From Spisula solida (lineage: Eukaryota > Mollusca > Bivalvia > Venerida > Mactridae), in contig OX365948.1 of assembly GCA_947247005.1 (NCBI GenBank), positions 1,984,001 to 2,048,000 of the forward strand: DNA of 64,000 bases. The letters run 5' to 3'. The stretch's first letter is position 1, and each line of letters starts with the position of its first letter. Of this stretch, positions 11,555 to 63,650 are shown piece by piece. The position numbers and the translations under genes are program-made. The notes below the pieces were generated by a model that worked only from the letters and a program-made list of their open reading frames with translations, was not told the origin of the DNA and did not search any database.

Positions 11555-14500
11555 TCACCAAAACTTTAAAGATATTTTATGCTTGTATAAAAAGTAGGTC
11601 ACTGCAGAAAGCACGAACATGTACACTGTTAATATAACCATAGCAACAAAGTCAGACTGGTATATTGTTTTAACACACATATTCACACAACCAGTCAATA
11701 AGTTAGCAAACAGGAAGTAGAAGAGTCCATTATAATTCACAGCAGATATGAGATCACATGTATCTTGTGTTGAAATCTTGTCTTTATCAGGGCTTTCTTT
11801 CAGTGTTTCTAAAAAGCAAAGAAACTTTTATCATATTTGTCTTCACAAAACTTGTAAATTTGTTCTCATAAAAAATTATCTGAGTGTACCCTTTATAGAG
11901 AAGGTTGTGCAGCGGTCATGTTTAGTCGCAACGGATATGACGTTACAGGAACTGGTATCGGTGTTTACTATTACAACTGTAGACAAGAGGGCCATTGGCC
12001 CTATAGCGCTCACCTGATGACTAGCAGTTTAGGCAGAATCAGTGACCTGGTGACCTAGTGACCTAGTTTTTGGCCCCAGATGACCCAGTTGTGAACTGGA
12101 CCTAGATTTCATAAAGCCACACATTGTGGTCAAGTGTTATTAATATCACATAAAAAATATTACCTCTAGAGTGTAAACAAGGTTTTTCTTTGATGTGACC
12201 TTGTGACCTAGTTTTTGACCACAAATGACCCATTTACAAACTTGACCTAGATTTTATACAAACAAACATTGTGACTAAGTTTCATATAGATTAGGTAAAG
12301 CAGGTCACCTCTAGAGTGTTAACAGGGTTTTTCTTTAATGTGACCTTGTGACCTAGTTTTTGACCCAAGATGACCCAGTTGCAAACTTGACCTAAATTTC
12401 ATGAAAACACATATTGTGACCATGTTTTATTCTAATTACATCATAAATATGACCTCTAGGGTGTTAACAAGGTTTTTCTTTGATTTGACCTGGTGACCTA
12501 GTTTTTGACCCCAGATGACTCAATTATGAACTTGACCTAGATTACATAGCGACATAAATTTTGGCCAAGTTTCATTAAGATTGTGTCATAAAAGTGACCT
12601 CTAGAGTGTAAACAAGGTTTTTTCTTTGATGTGACCTAGTGACCTAGATTTTGACCCCAGATGACCCAATTTCGAACTTGACCTAGATTATATAGTGACA
12701 TACATTGTGAACAAGTTTCATTAAGATTATGTCAAAAATGTGACCTCTAGAGTGTAAACAAGGTTTTTCTTTGATGTGACCTAAGTTTTGACCCCATATG
12801 ACCCAGTTACGAACTTGACCTAGATTTCATAGAGACAAACATTGTGACCAAGTTTAAAAAAGATTAAGTGAAAATTATGACCTCTAGAGTGTTAACAGTC
12901 CAATTGTTGACGGCGCACGACGGACAAAAGGGTGATCGCAATAGCTCACCTTGAGCACTTGGTGCTCAGGTGAGCTAAATAAAAGCTCCGCGAGTCGCAT
13001 GTGTCGCCTGACGACATGCACATTTGTCATGGAAAACTATCCACTATTGGGCTACATATCGACTCACAAGAGTTCTCTAATCATCTGAACTATAAACGAC
13101 AAAGTGATGCTCTGGACAAAAAAATGGCACAGCAAGAAACATGCATACCTATCTTGTAGTCATTAATACTTATGGTGACAAAGTTATGCCACGGACAAGA
13201 AATGCTTATAAAATCAATCAAAGGGACAAAAATAAAAAATGGCACAAGGTAGAGTTACGATTCTTGTGTACTGCACTTGGACTTTTGGTAAGAAACATGC
13301 ATACCAAATTTCAAGTCATTCAACCTCTTGGTGACAAAGTTATCCGCCGGACAAGAAATGCTCAAAATTAAATCAATCTAAGGAAAATAATTCAAAAACG
13401 ATGCAAGGCAGAGTTATGGTTCTTGCGCACTGCACTTCGGCTTATTGCAAGAAACATGCAAACCAAATCTTGAGTCATTTGAACTTAAGGTGACAAAGTT
13501 ATGCTCCGGTAAGAAATGCTCTAATAAAATCAATCAAAGGGAAATAATTAAAAAACTATGACAGGTAGAGTTATGGTTCTTGTGCACTGCACTTCGGCTT
13601 ATTGTAAGAAACATGCATACCAAATCTTGAGTCATTTGAATTTAAGGTGACAAAGTTATGCTCCGGACAAGAAATGCTCTAATAAAATCAATCAAAGGGA
13701 AATAATTCAAAAACTATGACAGGTAGAGTTATGGTTCTTGCGCACTGCACTTCGGCTTATTGCAAGAAACATGCAAACCAAATCTTGAGTCATTTGAACT
13801 TAAGGTGACAAAGTTATGCTCCGGTAAGAAATGCTCTAATAAAATCAATCAAAGGGAAATAATTAAAAAACTATGACAGGTAGAGTTATGGTTCTTGTGC
13901 ACTGCACTTCGGCTTATTGTAAGAAACATGCATACCAAATCTTGAGTCATTTGAACTTAAGGTGACAAAGTTATGCTCCGGACAAGAAATGCTCTAATAA
14001 AATCAATCAAAGGGAAATAATTCAAAAACTATGACAGGTAGAGTTATGGTTCTTGCGCACTGCACTTCGGCTTATTGTAAGAAACATGCATACCAAATAT
14101 TGAGTCATTTTAACGTAAGGTGACAAAGTTATGCTCCGGACAAGCAATTTGTGACGCCGCCGCCAAAGTAACACCTATATGTCGCCTTTTCAGGCGACAC
14201 AAAAACTGGGTACCAGCTTTCGCAACGTCTTATCCGTTGCAGCTAAACATGGCCACTGCACAACCTGTTTTCTATATAAGGTACAGTCAGATAAATTTGA
14301 TTCAGATAATTTTAAACCAAGTGCCTTTGATTCCTGCCACATCAATCTGATTAAAATCATATCCTCAAACCCGCTACGCATCAGGATCTGACGGCGACAC
14401 ATTAAAGGTCACCTCAGGCGACCTTTCCCATTAGCCAATCGGCGCCTTGCTTTCACAATTCTGAAAGCGATTTGTTCTTTTTATAAATACGGTAGTTATC

Positions 14501-17500: not shown

Positions 17501-20500
17501 TCAAAACAAACAAATATCCTCTATATAGGTGAAACGACTGGTTGTGTTAGAAATACATTTGAAATATATGTCCAGTATAATGAGTATATTATCATGGTAA
17601 ACAAGCACTCACCTCTGTTTCATAATGAGTTTTCCTAATTGAATTCCCATAATATAAATACTGAGATAACCGAAGCATGAGTATAAACCTTCTCTGTTCG
17701 CATCAATGATATCAACTCTTCCACCTTTCCCATCAGCTCCCTTAATCAAGTAATCAGTCAATCCATCATATGTCAAGTTATGCTAAAAAAAAGTATATTC
17801 AATAATTTACTTGACAGAAGCAGATATTCAAAGTCATGTCTAACTGAATAAATGACATTCAACTTTAGTATAGATTTACTATTAGCGATAGCATTTCCTT
17901 CAAACATAGACAACTCAGTCTGAATATGCAGACACTGGGTGATCCAGACATGGAACTATCTTTATACAAGTGCTAAACAGTGAGATACACCAACCTGTCA
18001 GCCAACCAGAGATTGAACATGTCACCTCCATTTTGAGATGACCTGTTGGTGACTGGCCGGCAAGTTTAATAATGGTTATCATTTGCTTTAATAGGTGCCT
18101 GGCATTGAGGGGTAAAGGTTAGGTGAAATCATACCAGTTAGTCAATTGGCTCTAAAAAAGGGTGACTCTGCAAGGGAATGAAAAACTTGAGTGTTCTTAC
18201 ATGACCAATGATTTTGCCTATATAGACAAAAAGCAAAAATAGCATTGTATAATTAGGAAATAGATCGCTGCTTTGCGTGATATACCGGTGAATAGATAAC
18301 GGTTTAGAGTTCATATGCATAGGAATTAATCACGAAAGCTACGAAAGAAAATTACCCAAAACGTCCCGCTCTACGGCGACGTCACAATTCATGACGTCAT
18401 GAAATAAACAAGACGTAAATTTCATTGATAAAAATCGCAAATTATACACGGGAGATAAATTAAACAGCCGAAAATCCTACCGTGATATACCGTTTATTAG
18501 ATAACGCTACAGCTCTATACGTTTACATGGAGCAAAATACAGACAGTGTTAGAATGTTTGATATACCGATGAAAGTAGGGGTGTACCGATGCATCAAAAT
18601 ATCGATACATTGCGATCCAGAGTGGCACGATAGTATGGATCGATAGTAAAAGTCTCGATCCAATAAATATTGCCGATAATTAGCTCAACTATCGATAGTT
18701 ACGATAGTTTCTTTTTTATTAATAAAGTTTTTTATTCATTTAAAACATCTTCCATTCTCGTTTAAACAAACTAATTGTAAATAATCACATGCATCAAAAC
18801 TGTCACAAAGGACCAATATCGCAAAAGTTCATGTTCTATTTCAGTCCAATTCATTCAAATCATTTCCACAAATAGTAGATTAGTATGTTGTACAACTAAG
18901 TGATATCGTACACAGTGCAAATTTAAATTTACAAGTTAATCTCTGGTTTTCGAATCTTGTCAATAACTATTGCAATAGTATCGTGAGAGTTTCTAGCAAT
19001 ACAATAGTATTGCAATAGTACTTTCAACAATAGCATAGTATTGCGATAGTCAAAAATGGACTCAATAGTCACCCCTAGATGAAAGTGATGTCACATCATT
19101 CAGGTATTCCATTTATGACATCATACCAGTAAGCAAGTAAAGTAAGCAACATACTCTTACAAAGTAACACTGGCTTAATATATAATTGCTCACTTTTGCG
19201 AACAAACATTTTGGAATCAAAATCAAATATTCAAAAGCCGTAGTATACCTTTTGTTTAACAATTAATCAATTCTTACCGGTCAGAACTCCAAACAGTTGT
19301 ATAAAAGCCGTTAAACTACGTTTCTTATTTATTTCTTAACTTACCTGATAAGCAGCCATGATTAACACACCAGCAACCTTCCACATCTTGGGAGATATTC
19401 CACAAAATAAGACGGTACATGCTATCTAAAATACATAGTATATCAGAAACAAGACTGCGTTCAATAAACGCTTATGCCCCCATGGAAGCCTAGTCCATAA
19501 AAAAAGCTAAGTTAATCAGGGGCCATAATTCTGTTAAAACGTTGGATAGGGTTACATGGCTTTGACAATGTAAGGGGCCTATGATGGTAAACAAGTATGT
19601 CAAGTTTGAAGACAATGCCTTGATGTAAGACGAAATTTGGGTTAACAAGAATTGGACGCTTAATAAGTCTAAGTCCAAAATTAGGTCAATGTGAAGGTCA
19701 AAATGAGGTTGGGTGATATAGGTGTGTGGAGAATGATCAAATACAACATCCATGCAAGTATGAAAGCTTTGTAGCAAGCCATGTTAATGCTAGAAGAAAA
19801 GGTCAATTTGGGTTAAGCAAGAATTTGGCCCTGCAATAAGTCTAAGTCCAAAATTAGGTCAAGGTGAATGTCAAAATGGGGTCAGGTGATACAGGCGTGT
19901 GGAGAGTGTTCATATACAACATCCATGCAAGTATAGAAGCTTTGTAGCAAGCCATAATGATGCTAGAAGAAACCGTCAATTTGGGTTTATCAGACAGATG
20001 AACGAACAGACGGACAGGTGAATCACTATATGCCTCTCGATCTGTCGATATGGGGGCATAAAAATAGTAGTCATATAAACAACAACTTTTGATGATGTCA
20101 CATAAACTGATGTCTATTTTCATTCTCGACTTGTTCAGAATAGCAGAATGAAGAGATTTTATATATATACACTGAAACTTTTCTAAATGTTAAAGATGCA
20201 AAATGTCAGTCACTCCAATGACAGAAATTTACTGTCAGACATACCCCTTTATTTAGTGCCAGATGAACACAGTTAACGGTAAGATGTTCATTAGTCCACA
20301 GGAATCAGTCATATTCTCTATATATGGCCCAAAACACTATCCAACACCCCACTTGAAGAGATAATAGATAGGTATAGGATACAGTGTTTTGGGCCAAAAA
20401 TGAAAATATCAGGTTCTAAGGAGATGATAGTTAACTGCAGGTCAATGGCCCAGGGTGAAGCTAATGGCCCAGGGTGAAGCTAATGGCCCAGGGTGAAGCT

Positions 20501-23500
20501 AATGGCCCAGGGTGAAGCTAATGGCCCAGGGTGAAGCTAATGGCCCAGGGTGAAGCTAATGGCCCAGGGTGAAGCTAATGGCCCAGGGTGAAGCTAATGG
20601 CCCAGGGTGAAGCTAATGGCCCAGGGTGAAGCTATTCTAAGTATGTAAAAGTAGAGAAGAATTATGAGTATAGGACAATATTACAGTCATCCTTTCAAGT
20701 TGCGCACTAGAATGAAGCATTGTTCATTGGGATGCATTACGGTTCACAGCTTAAGATAAGCAGCTGTTTTGACTCGCATGACCACTATCACAATAGTTTG
20801 CATCTATAGTGGGATTCAAACCTATACTGAAAGGCATCATCACCTAGCAATGCTAAGTTTTAACGCATTACACCACTTGCAAATCGCAAAAACCCCACTT
20901 ATAGGTGTAAAAGTTCACTGTAGAGTGGACTCATTTTAAAACACCTTAAAATAATATGTTCACAGTAAGTACCTTGACAACAGCGAGGGTAAAGAAGAAG
21001 TTCCAATGTACACCATATTCTGTCACATGTTCCTGATAGTCAGCTGACTTCACTGCGAGAACTCTCAACATTCCAATCACTATCAATGGCATCGATGATT
21101 TAACAGACTTCAAAATTGATGTCCCGGCCCTGTAAACATAATCCATGCAAGATTAGTTATATATTATACATATGATTTCAAAACGCTATTTAAATTTATA
21201 CTAAACTATAAAAATTATTAGTTAAACAAATAGTTAAAAATGCAATTTGAATTATACAAAACTACATGTATAAAAAATATTAATTATTCATACGGTTAAG
21301 AAAGCTATTTGAATTTGCTCAGTATTATAAAACATATATCAATTATTTGAAATACCATAAATATGTGAGTGGCCCTATGTTCAATAGCTTGGTCACCAAC
21401 ATTCTCTATATATCATACTTTTCATGACACGATCACATTCTTCCAAATTCAAAAAGGCTGGTTAAAGTATTAGCCAGCATAAATGTCCACACTTGATATT
21501 GATATTAAATGTAAAAAATAATCATGTTGATGCTTAGGAAATTGACAACTCAAACATTAAATGTTTCGTACAATGAACTGGTTCATAATTTATAAAGTTT
21601 TAAATGACATGGATAGCGTTAGAGAAAGCAGAGTAATATTTTGGGGTATAGTAAAGATGGTTAAATTGTAAGACTTTCTACGAGCTAATCAAGGTGCATA
21701 CTCAAGTTGAATAGAGGCAGAAAATGTGTAATACTAACAACTATATCCTCAAAGACATTATGAAAACTTATGACTTACAAACCTGTCAGAAGAAACAATT
21801 CCCCTTGCCTCTGGGGACACTACAGCGTTAGTAATTAAAAATCCACCAACTCCTACATCCATCAAACCAGTACCATATGTCTCTACCTTGGCAAAATATC
21901 TCGGAAATATTTTAAAGTCTACAGCAAGAATGGAGAAAGCTGTTATGACATTAGCATAGGCTCTATAGTAGTTAATATAAGGTCTTCGGTTCCCCATCTC
22001 CACAGACGAGAATGTGATATGTTCGCAGGCTGTTTTCACACTGTTCTGTTGCATTTTAACATTGAAGAGAAATATCAGTGCCACTAAACCACAAATGAGA
22101 GATTCAATTGGGTAGTAGCCTAATGTTGACATCATCAGTTGTAGAGGCAATATAACGGCTGTAAAATCTATGAGAAGCATCATCCTGTAATACCAAATAA
22201 AGAGCAGCTGAAAGATCTCCCAGTGGAAGAATTGTATAAGTTAAGTTCCCTTCTAAAACTACATTTGTATTTATGTGAATACCAGTAAATTAAATCAATG
22301 GGAATATGTGCCCAGGCCCTTCACCAGAAATGTTTTAAGGCGCTGGGGTAATGCTGGAATTTGTGCTAAAGGAGATCGACAATAATGGCTAAAATGTTTT
22401 AGAAGAAAAAACTGCATGTTTTTCCATAATTGAAAATTAAAGACTGGTTTAAGCACTTTTTATATAATCAAGACCATAATCTCTCCAATAACAAAATAAT
22501 GACCCAAAATATTGATTTAAAGACCCCATACTAGGATTTAAGGCACTGGGGGAAAGCCTGGTGCCAATTTAGGGGCTCAAACCACAACCATGTAACAACA
22601 ACAACAATTTCGAACTGATTGGACGGTCCCTTGCTATGATTTACTTGTAGATAAGCCAACAATACAAGTTTTCGCACCTTTCATTGAATGTTGAAATCCA
22701 TTGTTCGATTGTATTGATTTGTAGTCGAACCTGACCCAAGACATGATGATATTCTGTGGTTCACAGCTTTATACTTGTATATAAATATGCTAGTTAATAA
22801 GAAACCTTGCACATGTGAACACTTGAAGAGTTTGTAGGAGATAAGTCAGATTTCATGTCAATTTGGTCTAACTATATTGTTTCATTATTGTAATGAATAA
22901 TAATACAAAAAGGCAGTGGCTAGCCGTCCAGCACCGGACGACTAGACAGCGAAATTATTCGTGGTAATAAACTACGAATTCATTTTGTGACCGGCCGTGT
23001 ATCTCCCTATATTGTCCGCCATATTGGAAAAGAGGTGTCACAAACATAGCTAATATGGCAATTAATTATTTTTCATTCGCAGTTTTAATGGCACATATAT
23101 ATATACAAAACTATACAATTTACTATTGTAAATTTTATTTTTTATTTTGAATACAATATGCAATAGGGCCTACCATGATACGATTCATAAACGGCAACTT
23201 TGTTTTCACGCTATTATAACCAGTGATATTCCAAACTGTCAATTACCTAACAGAGCAATTTCATTTTTTCAGCATGAAGTAATATACTTTCCCCATCCTC
23301 ATAATACTGTAATTGAAACACTCTATGTTCCCTTACTACTTCTAGCTCTATTTCTAATGCCATTTTTCTAGCCATTGAACGTAGGGTTTGCTAGCAGGGC
23401 TCGACACTAACACTGGTCCGCTGGTCCGAGACCAGTGAAAATCCAGAAGGACCAGTGAAAATTCTGGAGGACCAGTAACTGTCCTATTTACAAATTTGGC

Positions 23501-33183: not shown

Positions 33184-33525
33184 GTCCCAACAATATGATG
33201 TCGGTATAATGAATGTCCCAACAATATGATGTCGGTATAATGAATGTCCCAACAATATGATGTCGGTATAATGAATGTCCCAACAATATGATGTCGGTAT
33301 AATGAATGTCCCAACAATATGATGTCGGTATAATGAATGTCCCAACAATATGATGTCGGTATAATGAATGTCCCAACAATATGATGTCGGTATAATGAAT
33401 GTCCCAACAATATGATGTCGGTATAATGAATGTCCCAACAATATGATGTCGGTATAATGAATGTCCCAACAATATGATGTCGGTATAATGAATGTCCCAA
33501 CAATATGATGTCGGTATAATGAATT
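33184..33525 (+). repeat. 31-bp minisatellite, 11 copies
   Basis: The unit begins GTCCCAACAATATGATGTCG and is 31 bp long, essentially invariant. Since 31 is not a multiple of three and the unit has no minus-strand stop, it generates long spurious minus-strand frames. It lies 250 bp after the REX1BD stop. Confidence 0.97.
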
Positions 33526-38201: not shown

Positions 38202-41200
38202 CTAGTCTCCTTCGCCTTTTGAAGCTTCGTCAAAGTTTTCTACCAGATCTGAAAATAGAACCATGCTCATGTTTAACGTTGAGTATTATAGTTAATTTAA
38301 GCACAATCAATAATGTGAAATTGACTATGATTTTAAGATTGTTTAAACATTCAGCGAAGCTGACTGGAAAGTCTGTAATCACAACAACCTTATAAAACAT
38401 TTAGCCAACTAATGACTAGTTGAATTCCTATCTACTGTAATCACAATGTTGACCTACCAGGCAATGATGATTTCATTAAACAGTCAACAAGCAGTGAACT
38501 AATACATCAAACTACTGACTGAAGCCATGAGAATACTACACATCATCATGTAACAGGTTTACATCAAATTGGCCCAAGTTTAAAGGTATACATACAGACA
38601 ACCTGTGCTATCAGAATATTTAGCCGCTTGGAAATTTTCATTACATATCAAATGGTAATTCCAAGTTATCATCATTTTACAGGTTAATACCAAATTTAAA
38701 GGAGACAAAATCGGGTACTAACAGTTCAACACAATGCAGGAATAAAGACATTCACAACCTGTGCTATCAGAATATTTAGCCGCTTGGAAATTTTCATTAC
38801 ACATCAAATGGTAATTCCAAGTTATCATCATTTTACAGGTTAACACTGAATTTAAAGGAGACAAAATCCAATCGGATATGAATCAATCAACACATCCCAA
38901 GAATATAGACAACCTGGACTATCAGAATATTTAGCCGCTTGGAAATTTTCATTACACATCAAATGGTAATTCCAAGTTATCATCATTTTTCAGGTTAACA
39001 CTAAATTATACAAACTTTAAAAAGTAGCCAAATAGAATCTGATAAGAATCATTCAACAGGGATTCTACTGAGGCATAATGATGCAATAGAGTTCCATTAG
39101 AACACAACCCTACACATAAACTGTTTTAAACATTGTTCTTTTGTTATAATTTAGCACATGAAATTTCAAATAAACATAACTACCATCAAATAACATTTAA
39201 TTTATGCAGAAAAGTACCTGTGAAATCAGAATATTTAGCCGCTTGGAAATTTTCATTACACATCAAATGGTAATTCCAAGTTATCATCATTTTACAGGTT
39301 AATGCCAAAATTTATTTGCTTCAAAGAGCCAAAATTCGATATGAATTGATCAACACATCCCAAGAATATAGACAACCTGAACAATCAGAATATTTAGCCG
39401 CTTGGAAATTTTCATTACACATCAAATGGTAATTCCAAGTTATCATCATTTTACAGGTTAACACCAAATTTAAAGGAGACAAAATCGGGTACTAACAGTT
39501 CAACACAATGCAGGAATAAAGACATTCACAACCTGTGCTATCAGAATATTTAGCCGCTTGGAAATTTTCATGACATATCAAATGGTAATTCCAAGTTATC
39601 ATCATTTTACAGGTTACACTGAATTTAAAGGAGACAAAATCGAATCGGATATGAAACATTCAACACATCACAAGAATATAGACAACCTGGACAATCAGAA
39701 TATTTAGCCGCTTGGAAATTTTCATGACATATCAAATGGTAATTCCAAGTTATCATCATTTTACAGGTTAACACCAAATTTAAAGGAGACAAAATCGGGT
39801 ACTAACAGTTCAACACAATGCAGGAATAAAGACATTCACAACCTGTGCTATCAGAATACTTAGCCGCTTGGAAATTTTCATGACATATCAAATGGTAATT
39901 CCAAGTTATCATCATTTTACAGGTTACACTGAATTTAAAGGAGACAAAATCGAATCGGATATGAAACATTCAACACATCACAAGAATATAGACAACCTGG
40001 ACAATCAGAATATTTAGCCGCTTGGAAATTTTCATGACATATCAAATGGTAATTCCAAGTTATCATCATTTTACAGGTTAACACTGAATTTAAAGGAGAC
40101 AGAATCGAATCGGATATGAAGCATTCAACACATCACAAGAATATAGACAACCTGGACAATCAGAATATTTAGCCGCTTGGAAATTTTCATGACATATCAA
40201 ATGGTAATTCCAAGTTATCATCATTTTACAGGTTAACACTGAATTTAAAGGAGACAAAATCGAATCGGACATGAAGCATTCAACACATCACAAGAATATA
40301 GACAACCTGGACAATCAGAATATTTAGCCGCTTGGAAATTTTCATTACACATCAAATGGTAATTCCAAGTTATCATCATTTTACAGGTTAATGCCAAATT
40401 TACAGGAGACAAAACAGTTTCGAACTGTTTAACACAATGCAGGAATAAATGAATTCACAACCTGTGCTATCAGAATATTTAGCCGCTTGGAAATTTTCAT
40501 TACACATCAAATGGTAATTCCAAGTTATCATCATTACACAAGTTTAAACCACACTGAATACACAAAGAAATACATAAGAACATCACCCACCTTCTGTGTT
40601 AAATATCTCAATTCCACAAGAGGGATAACTTTAATTCTATGATATGAGATTTGCACAAAGCAATTAGGACCTTGTATGCTTCAAACTTAGCTATTTAGTA
40701 CCAGATTGAATTCAATCAAAGAAGACAAGAATGATGAGAACAGAAGCTGTTTAAGCAGCTTGGATATATGCATCTGGGGCCAAATGGTAATCGTGTATTT
40801 CGAGGTTAAGCTCGTAACAACAATTAATTTAACAACAAATTATTCAACATTTAAACCTGTTTTCAATTGTCATGATCATTTAATTAAACAAATATTTTAT
40901 CAACAGTCTGCTCGACCAGGAACGTTTTGAACAAAGCAATAAACAACACAACAAAAACGTTTAGTTAATTTACAAGATCACAACGAAATTTGAAACCCAC
41001 AAACTTCACTAGACAGTAACAACTTAAATCCTCATCAGCAATTCCAAGAAAAGATGTACACAAGAACATAAACTAGTCAACAAACATACAAGTATTTCAA
41101 CACATCCAGCGTTTTAATATCATTAATATGACTATTCTAGGAATGTCAAAATGGCGCATATAAATACAACTTTTTTACAAACCATCACCCATATTTGTAG

Positions 41201-44200
41201 TTTTCCTAGCAATATATTCATAGTTTCTAACAGCAAATCAAGTATTAGGCTAAATGCAATATGTTGAATTGCACAATTAAATTGCTATTAAGCAGTAATA
41301 TTTAAATTCCTTAAAATAGCAATATGTTGTTGTTGCACAAAAATACTGTTACAATATATAGGTCAACCTACCAGGAACATCGTCATCATCATCAATATCG
41401 TCTGTGTTTGCTTTAGTGGAATCACCACCACCTAAAATAAATACATCAACATTTATATATAAGAAAGGCAAACAATCAAACAACAAGGCTGGCACAGTGA
41501 TCTATCAACAAAGCAAAAAACAAAAGTGAGTCACATTTATCTAATTTTCTCAGACAGTGGGGACAACCAATCATGCCATGGCGAAGGACACTGAACACTA
41601 AATTACAGAAGATTAATAAGATGACCTGGAGGGAAGCCAAGCATGTGGCATTAGACAGAGTCTGGAGGCGAGCTGAGGTAGAGCATGTGGTTTTAGACAG
41701 AGTCTCCTGGCGAGCTCTACCTCCATGTGGCTTTAGACAGAGTCTGGTGGCGAGCTGAGGTAGAAGCTCCATGTCCCCGAAGGGATGAAGAAGATTTAAG
41801 ATGTATCCTAATTTTTCTAATCAGAGCTAATTAACTGCTATGATGGAAGTACACAAAAAATTATTAACATAGAATAGTATGATTCTGTCAGACTTAAACA
41901 AAATTTAAGCGACAGCATCATGATGTTCCTCATGGAATCACCATTTATAATGAACACAAGGGACAAATGAAACTTCTTAACTTACTAGGAAATAGCCAAT
42001 AGTAAGTTAGTGATACTTATATACACTGTAATACAGACAACATTGCTAGCATCTCAGTATGAAACCAATATCATAACATAGTAACAAACTTCCTACATAT
42101 ATATGTGGTTTATGAAAGAACACATGGAGATACATAACCTGATCAACAATAAATAACACTTCTAGAACTAGGCAACAAATGTACATGCATTAAATCCCCC
42201 ACCATATTCACTGTACATGCATTAAGTCCCCCACCATATTCACTGTAACAGTGTTTCTGGTCTTTCTGGAGCCGATTGTCTCAATGTTACATGGTAGTAT
42301 CCCCGACACTCTGTGCTTTTCAGTTCCAAAAGAGAATTATAATGTTTTCATAGGGCTCTGACGAAACTACCAATGTTATGCTCTGACAGAACTCAGGACA
42401 CAACATCCGAGTTCTGCCAGAGCATAACATCGTTTTCAGTTCCGCCTGAGCCCTAAGAAAACAGTACGATTCTCAGATGGAACTTACAAGCAGTGTGTAT
42501 GGAAAACTACCATGTTTTAACACTGACAGCATGTGTAATATTTTTAGTCACATATAAAAAATATTAAACAAGCAACTCTATGTCCAAGAGCCCATTACTG
42601 ATAGTTTGTGACTACAATGTGCCAGAAGATTCCTTTGTTATAGACATATAACCCCCGTACTCCTATAACCCCACTGCAAAGCTTTTTACCTCATTATATA
42701 AGATTTTAATTATATTTTTCAGCAAACGTGGCTCCATGATAGTTTGTTTTGCTGCCCATACTTACGGAAATACTCACCACCTGCAACGGTAGATGCAAGT
42801 TTCTTTAAACTACTCAAACTTTCTGCACCAAGTTGATTTAAGATTCCTGGCAGCATCTCGGATATTTCTGTCAATTCACAAGACATAAATTCATGAAAAA
42901 AAAACATTCAAACAGCTTAGAATTTGTTAATTTTACAATATATGGCTTGACTTCATTGAAATGAACAATTTTATCATACACATACATTTCACATGCGCTA
43001 CAGATCTAAGATCTCATTGGGGGGGGGGGGGGGGGGGGGGACTGAACTGAAAATCGGGAAAATCATATGCGAAGGACCATAAATTTGCCAAAGAAGAGGC
43101 CTTTAAAAACATTGTTTCCATATACATCTTGATTTAATTGACCATAAATTTGCCAAATCTTGTTATTTTCATCAAATAACTTTTATTTTGGTCAGAAATC
43201 ACAGCTCATTTAGGAACAGATAAATCCGGAATTCAGGATAAATCCGGAATATTGACACCCCTGAAGATCTGTCAACAAGTGTTCTATCATAAACTTGCAA
43301 TATCAGATAAAATAGCCGCTTGGGTATTTTCATAACAACTCAAATGGTAATTCCAAGTTATCATCACATATGCAAGTTTTACTATGGAACATGCAAAACT
43401 GGGTTTCATGAAATTTGATTATTTTAAAATCATTTTAACTGAACCGTACACCTAGAAGGATGTTTATCTTATACCACTAAAAAGAGAAACAAATTAAAGT
43501 ATCAATTAAGGAGAATTGAAACTACTCCATACTCCCTCAATAAAAGTGAATTGATTTCCTTTATAGTCTATACATAGTTATTGTGAAAGTTACTTCAAGT
43601 CAAGTCAAAATTTATTTATTGTCGGAAATTTGGTACAAACAAAATAACATAAGCTATGTATAGCTTTTGTCCGACAAACAATTGATTCAAGTCAGAATCA
43701 ATAATAACTTGTCCTAAACCACCAGGCAAATGCTAATTTCGCAGACTATAGTCCAGAGAATTTGACCTTCTATTAGCATAATTTAACAGCTGATATATGG
43801 TCTATAAAGCGGGAAACATTATGAAGACGCTCGAGATGTAATACCAACACAAATCTAAAGGATCGACACTGCATGATTTGCTAGCAGAAATTTATATATT
43901 GAACGCAAGAACCTTGTAATATATTCATGCATAAAGGTCAGGATCATGTCAAATTCTCCATACTACACAATCTGTAGCAATAGTTTAAAAACTTCATACT
44001 ATAATTTAGGTAGATTCTTAAACAAAAGTTCTTATAACTAAGTTTTATCACTCACGTTTATTTTCTGCATGACCACTAATAGCAAATGTATTTGCAGCTA
44101 GGGAAGCTTGAACTTTAGGATTGTTGAAATGTATCACTTGACCATCATCTTTAATCATATTAACCTACAACACAATAAAAGTTCTACATTAAATGGAATC

Positions 44201-62893: not shown

Positions 62894-63650
62894 TTTTTGT
62901 GTCGCCTGAAAAGGCGACATATAGGTGTTACTTTGGCGGCGGCGTCACAAATTGCTTGTCCGGAGCATAACTTTGTCACCTTAAGTTCAAATGACTCAAG
63001 ATTTGGTATACATGTTTCTTACAATAAGCCGAAGTGCAGTGCACAAGAACCATAACTCTACCTGTCATAGTTTTTGAATTATTTCCCTTTGATTGATTTT
63101 ATTAGAGCATTTCTTGTCCGGAGCATAACTTTGTCACCTTAAGTTCAAATGACTCAAGATTTGGTATGCATGTTTCTTGCAATAAGCCGAAGTGCAGTGC
63201 GCAAGAACCGTAACTGCCTTGCATCGTTTTTGAATTATTTCCCTTAGATTGATTTAATTTGAGCATTTCTTGTCCGGCGGATAACTTTGTCACCAAGAGG
63301 TTGAATGACTTGAAATTTGGTATGCATGTTTCTTACCAAAAGTCCAAGTGCAGTACACAAGAATCGTAACTCTACCTTGTGCCATTTTTGATTTTTGTCC
63401 CTTTGATTGATTTTATTAGAGCATTTCTTGTCCGTGGCATAACTTTGTCACCATAAGTATTAATGACTCCAAGATAGGTATGGTATGCATGTTTCTTGCT
63501 GTGACATTTTTTTGTCCAGAGCATCACTTTGTCGTTTTTAGTTCAGATGACTAGAGAACTCTTGTGAGTCGATATGTAGCCCAATAGTGGATAGTTTTCC
63601 ATGACAAATGTGCATGTCGTCAGGCGACACATGCGACTCGCGGAGCTTTT
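62894..63650 (+). mobile_element. Repeat element with about 180-bp internal array, copy 2
   Basis: Same element as 12979-14205 in opposite orientation: it opens with TGTCGCCTGAAAAGGCGACA and TACTTTGGCGGCGGCGTCAC, has four units with TTGTCCGGAGCATAACTTTG, and closes with TGCGACTCGCGGAGCTTTT. It lies in NASP intron 2. Fewer units than copy 1 shows array length variation. Confidence 0.78.

Follow-up and report, generated by a model that had tools for sequence, protein, structure and literature searches.

The last intron of the BTF3 gene in this bivalve holds a twelve-copy array of box C/D snoRNA units, which very probably arose by tandem amplification of one ancient snR77/SNORD65-type snoRNA on the coding strand of the host. 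The window, by which we mean the whole 64,000-nt stretch that was analysed (C5:1984001-2048000, on a contig of a 932-Mb genome in 36 contigs), contains BTF3 on the minus strand, and both the host gene and the placement in its last intron turned out as originally predicted. The encoded protein has a NAC domain (E 4.4e-26), and among the best 120 of 5220 protein matches the best named one is BTF3 of Mya arenaria at 92% identity, with Ruditapes and Dreissena also near the top. The intron (38249..41371, minus strand, 3123 nt) has GT...AG limits and separates a penultimate exon of 20 residues (41372..41431, minus strand, with limits inferred by splice-site reading) from the coding part of the last exon (38205..38248, minus strand, 15 residues, the first G of its first codon coming from the preceding exon). 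From the 5' splice site to the start of the first unit are 827 nt, and from the end of the last unit to the 3' splice site 351 nt.

Twelve intact units of 86 nt each occupy 38600..40544, all on the host (minus) strand, in agreement with the predicted number, size and orientation. Boxes and stem were located in B1 (40459..40544), B2 (40304..40389), B3 (40149..40234), B4 (39994..40079), B5 (39840..39925), B6 (39684..39769), B7 (39530..39615), B8 (39374..39459), B9 (39215..39300), B10 (38911..38996), B11 (38756..38841) and B12 (38600..38685). Box C (ATGATGA) and box D (CTGA), claimed for every unit, were recovered by our scan in 12 of 12, always at a C-to-D distance of 61, and the claimed closing stem of 6-7 Watson-Crick pairs is present in each; B1 has the stem arm AACTTGTG where the others have AACCTGTA. 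With a diverged copy from an earlier intron included, all 13 BTF3 copies have a box C of the form RUGAUGA and a box D CUGA near their ends, joined by a terminal stem of 6-9 Watson-Crick pairs. Two details of the original prediction needed correction. Its spacing of about 155 bp holds for 10 of the 11 intervals between box C starts (154-159 bp), but it did not mention one interval of 304 bp; the long spacer behind B9, of 218 nt, is matched by one in a second array in RPS19. Its invariant internal segment does exist but exceeds the claimed 20 nt, as unit positions 10-39 (30 nt) and 45-66 (22 nt) are the same in 12 of 12 units.

Scanning both strands of the window for box C, box D and a stem of at least 5 Watson-Crick pairs gave 14 C/D matches on the host strand, 13 of them inside BTF3, and 0 on the opposite strand; the 54.8 kb of window DNA outside BTF3 contributed a single match. 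Markov controls (n=30) produced a mean of 0.47 matches and a maximum of 3. The predicted box C/D snoRNA reading survives the tests made. Single-strand folding of four units was only mildly better than that of shuffles (z -1.1 to -3.5). Two further features of the units were discarded: splice-site-like ends (GTAAAA...CAG), judged by eye, were dropped because the diverged copy fails to keep them, and an internal hairpin CTTGG/CCAAG has five invariant outer pairs and two inner pairs that are broken in the diverged copy, with no covariation.

That diverged copy, Bi4 (43292..43378, minus strand), lies in an earlier BTF3 intron, and the genome-search match to it spans 43366-43301. It keeps the D' guide, D', the C' region, the CCAAGCGGCTA block and box D, while its box C reads GTGATGA and its loop, linkers and closing stem differ from those of the array units. 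Compared with the array stem AACCTGTA/ACAGGTT, the Bi4 stem AACTTGCA/TGCAAGTT carries both-side changes at 2 of its 7 pairs. The covariation is modest, as two both-side pairs were reached by 21 of 500 shuffles, the percentage paired by 56 of 500 and the covariation score by 24 of 500, and both compensated pairs stem from one sequence, Bi4 itself.

Judged by its sequence, the unit, to which the original prediction gave no name, is of the snR77/SNORD65 type. No Rfam family reached its gathering score in the window; the best match at a lax threshold was snoR77Y (RF01178, clan CL00057), at 23.7 bits against a threshold of 52 (E 0.3), and in that alignment UGGAAUUACC is identical to the consensus and in register with the D' region. 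A genome search with RF00571, which carries the name SNORD65, gave 0 matches at E<=0.001, its 14 controls being silent too. Because the family models score below their curated thresholds, we call the unit snR77/SNORD65-type and not an Rfam member. Its D' guide, TGGAATTACC, has the register of the snR77/snoR77Y/SNORD65 clan, which directs 18S Um578 in yeast and Um627 in human, and the clan's guide is thus recognised from UGGAAUUACC in the snoR77Y register together with the published clan targets. In the available text of PMC3511168, on the snoRNAs of the last eukaryotic common ancestor, one table row joins AtsnoR77Y (Um580), HBII-135 (Um627) and snR77 (Um578), and HBII-135 (RF00571) and snR77 are assigned to clan CL00057. 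A table in the available part of PMC8817022 gives the same methylation sites with Dictyostelium added, and in an excerpt of PMC2780460 the Neurospora counterpart figures among the D' guides.

SSU_rRNA_eukarya was found in the 18S locus of the host genome. The host 18S contains the target site, with 76 of 76 nt around it identical to the 18S stretch that served as the query. The antisense element pairs over 10 nt with GGTAATTCCA of the animal's own 18S, and the fifth base upstream of D' falls opposite the U at SSU position 602, which is the U* in GCGGU*AAUUCC. The 10-nt match alone is weak, since a match at least as long turns up in 151 of 2000 shuffled units; against the 20-nt core by itself, 9 nt is attained in 13 of 20000 shuffles. 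Within the second invariant block, GCGGCU pairs with 18S AGCCGC, which lies directly 5' of the D' guide target; together the two elements span 16 contiguous nt of 18S. Extra pairing beside the guide target occurs in C/D snoRNAs, and no convincing separate rRNA target was found for the D-side guide in the 18S and 14 kb downstream, which fits a role of GCGGCU as such extra pairing.

The original prediction treated the BTF3 array as an isolated case, and this did not hold: a second array in RPS19, the Bi4 copy and arrays in RPL7A and RPS12 accompany it. A genome search with the unit returned at least 26 matches (the 12 array units, Bi4 and 13 copies on C4), and one with Bi4 returned 23, in the BTF3 and RPS19 loci only; these genome-wide DNA match counts are lower bounds. 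On C4, a single 4.7-kb intron of RPS19, a gene identified by Ribosomal_S19e (E 7e-24) and exon reading, carries the copies in sense orientation; 10 of them are intact and 3 decayed. Within these lower bounds, the matches all lie sense to one of two genes, in two introns of BTF3 and a single intron of RPS19; the many gene-independent copies expected of a satellite or mobile repeat, and with them a satellite widespread outside BTF3, were not seen. A scan of viral contigs for the unit gave 0 matches. SNORD57-type RNAs occupy C4:54757024-54762827, in the RPS19 array intron and the next one. At C4:54758037 in the array intron, SNORD57 (RF00274) just passes its threshold of 47 with 47.3 bits. Weaker matches lie at 54757249, 54761362 and 54757024 (E 0.14) in the same intron, and the next intron has one weaker SNORD57-type match at C4:54762763. 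Genome-wide at E<=0.001 there are 2 SNORD57 matches, both in the RPS19 locus.

When the BTF3 and RPS19 loci were compared, the best 40 of 74 local matches followed the arrays, their spacers and near flanks, and the far ends of all 74 were at Bi4 and C4:54763275. From this pattern we infer that array DNA, beyond the RNA alone, was copied between BTF3 and RPS19 and that the snoRNA parts then stayed alike. Divergence between the loci is 4.8% substitutions for intact units, as against 26.6% with 18.2% gaps for short spacers (10 BTF3 and 10 RPS19 short spacers, with the 3 longer spacers left out), which argues that the RNA is constrained and not the repeat; including the 3 decayed RPS19 copies brings the unit difference to 5.8% with 2.3% gaps. 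Among the 22 intact array units there are 0 variable columns in box C, the D' guide, D', the C' region, CCAAGCGGCTA and box D, and the variation falls in the linkers, the loop and some stem columns; units B3-B7, for instance, have a loop variant. The earlier preference for function over satellite is upheld by these kept boxes and guide, the varying spacers and the few genomic places. Inside the BTF3 array, divergence is 4.6% for units and 18.6% with 11% gaps for the 10 short spacers. Recent unequal exchange is indicated by the 100% identity of the B4 and B6 blocks, each a unit with its spacer, and by the alternation of two spacer classes; sameness within the array could partly reflect recent homogenisation.

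Comparable clusters lie in other translation genes. A SNORD36 genome search gave 3 copies on C17, and RPL7A (C17:34885800-34898880), identified by Ribosomal_L7Ae at two exons and by 171 aa of joined exons against 60S ribosomal protein L7a (E 4.3e-80), has on its host strand 18 C/D candidates in one 8.5-kb intron and 9 in the next, from several families, with 0 scan matches on the opposite strand. SNORD36 scores above its Rfam threshold (in the preceding intron), SNORD81- and SNORD12-type members score below, and the other families are unnamed. The SNORD36 copies lie at C17:34884983-34885467 and 34906896-34906975, one of them inverted and about 22 kb off, which suggests that part of the host locus was duplicated in inverse orientation. 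RPS12, on the minus strand of C5 and identified by its match to 40S ribosomal protein S12 at E 6e-49, has 19 candidates on the host strand of its last intron (C5:57677609-57682115) and 0 on the opposite strand. Among them, SNORD100-type units (5 Rfam matches below threshold, best E 4.6e-5) are mixed with a family that RPS12 (11 copies by motif) has in common with RPL7A (5). Intron limits in these two genes are exon reading frames and not transcripts, and candidates there are defined by boxes and stem. Stems of four RPL7A/RPS12 families show some both-side changes in three, and the paired cells do not beat shuffles, of which 197, 609, 331 and 2000 of 2000 reach the observed value.

Arrays are present in four of the five genes read (BTF3, RPS19, RPL7A and RPS12, but not NSA2, where 10 kb gave 0 C/D scan matches), a proportion that is not an unbiased sample because BTF3 was given, RPS19 was reached by homology, RPL7A by snoRNA search and RPS12 by a chosen family search. 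Genes like RPS12 are snoRNA hosts in other animals, which was part of the reason for choosing it. A SNORD27 genome search gave 0 matches, with its controls silent too. The genome contains further loci, namely three of L7Ae and a second of S8e.

We propose that each unit would bind the C/D core proteins to form a snoRNP, either in the nascent intron or once it has been excised, and that this snoRNP would methylate the U of GCGGU*AAUUCC in 18S (Um627 in human numbering), aided by pairing of GCGGCU with the adjacent AGCCGC. Extra copies would raise the dose of the guide, and they would have multiplied through unequal crossing-over, with array DNA passing between BTF3 and RPS19. The account of splicing, debranching and trimming from both ends fits one snoRNA per intron; for a 12-copy intron, and others of up to 19 units, end-trimming alone would be insufficient if the inner units are used. 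In the least certain step of the scheme, units may be cut apart within the intron by an endonuclease and trimmed by exonucleases to the snoRNP ends, which we propose because end-trimming alone frees the outermost ends only. According to the accessible sections of PMC11028025, animal introns that host snoRNAs predominantly hold a single one, and trimming stops at the snoRNP ends. RNase III/DROSHA is a candidate for cutting between units, by analogy with RNase III cleavage of another mixed snoRNA arrangement in fission yeast, possibly by DROSHA in human, as given in the part of PMC12508059 at hand. When all 11 BTF3 spacers were folded, no RNase III-like hairpin common to them was found.

It is also conceivable, although we consider it rather unlikely, that the intron gives long snoRNP-capped RNAs in the style of sno-lncRNAs, or only one or two stable units, with most copies being passengers. 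Two snoRNAs in one intron can, through trimming, leave a snoRNA-ended lncRNA (PMC11028025, in its available text), and this possibility would also suit BTF3 spacers that share no hairpin pointing to RNase III-like cutting and the decay of 3 of 13 RPS19 copies, which implies that single copies are dispensable. Passengers should decay, however, and yet none of the 12 BTF3 units has lost a box or the guide, and the constraint seen between the loci is far stronger on intact units than on short spacers.

A different fate for the RNA itself, in which the snoRNA left its rRNA duty to act on another RNA with the CCAAGCGGCTA block as a new guide, strikes us as improbable. The invariance of CCAAGCGGCTA in 23 of 23 intact units though its flanks change, the lack of a convincing separate rRNA target in the 18S and 14 kb downstream, and the orphan status of the large mammalian tandem arrays SNORD113-116 (PMC11028025, same text) would all be expected of it; the D' guide, however, is equally invariant and fits 18S, and GCGGCU is accounted for as extra pairing beside the D' target. 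We rejected, as very improbable indeed, a satellite or mobile repeat with chance C/D-like boxes kept alike by gene conversion. The array's tandem layout, alternating spacer classes, identical blocks and presence with its spacers in two genes resemble such a repeat, but genome-wide the unit was found in three places (a lower bound), always sense to the host gene, and conservation is confined to the snoRNA parts, with a known clan's guide in register.

As an amplified C/D guide, the unit shares with the snR77/snoR77Y/SNORD65 clan the D' guide UGGAAUUACC in register, the C/D boxes and the 18S target site, and differs in its 12 + 1 + 13 copies in BTF3 and RPS19 and in scoring below the model thresholds. 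Huang in 2004 reportedly described H/ACA snoRNA clusters in Drosophila introns, and Liang in 2002 intronic snoRNA clusters in rice; likened by the titles of these papers alone, both have several snoRNAs per intron. Mammalian SNORD113/114 and SNORD115/116 likewise consist of many near-identical tandem C/D copies, but these are orphan guides that lie in repeated introns within imprinted lncRNA genes (PMC11028025, as far as its available text goes), whereas the BTF3 array has many copies of an rRNA guide in one protein-coding intron. Two-snoRNA introns and sno-lncRNAs, covered in the same available text (PMC11028025), also exceed one snoRNA per intron, with two units as against the 9-19 here. In the portions available, PMC2656528 describes single-intron snoRNA clusters in plants and a pair in Plasmodium, and PMC3412847 describes sponge snoRNAs duplicated into neighbouring introns and a single snoRNA in the last RPS19 intron.

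Searches limited to open-access papers listed nothing that we recognised as large C/D arrays inside single protein-coding introns of an animal, molluscs included. What appears to be new is the occurrence of multi-copy C/D arrays inside single protein-coding introns, with families common to different hosts. We suggest, tentatively, that this bivalve lineage has broken the one-snoRNA-per-intron habit, with clusters of 9-19 C/D units of one or a few guides in single introns of translation genes (BTF3, RPS19, RPL7A, RPS12), with families common to hosts (the snR77-type in BTF3 and RPS19, another in RPL7A and RPS12) and with a release by intron-internal cutting that is undescribed for such animal arrays, so that guide dosage would become an evolvable copy-number trait. 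The arrays make intron-internal snoRNA release in animals, and the tuning of rRNA methylation by guide copy number, open to test, and the mixed clusters and common families show guide RNAs moving between translation genes.

The window also contains repeats of other kinds: perfect tandem repeats of 31 bp x 11.0 at 33184-33524 and of 19 bp x 10.1 at 20444-20634 (each with 100% matches), and tandem repeats of about 158 bp at 13132-14148 and 62951-63497, whose consensus units look reverse-complementary.
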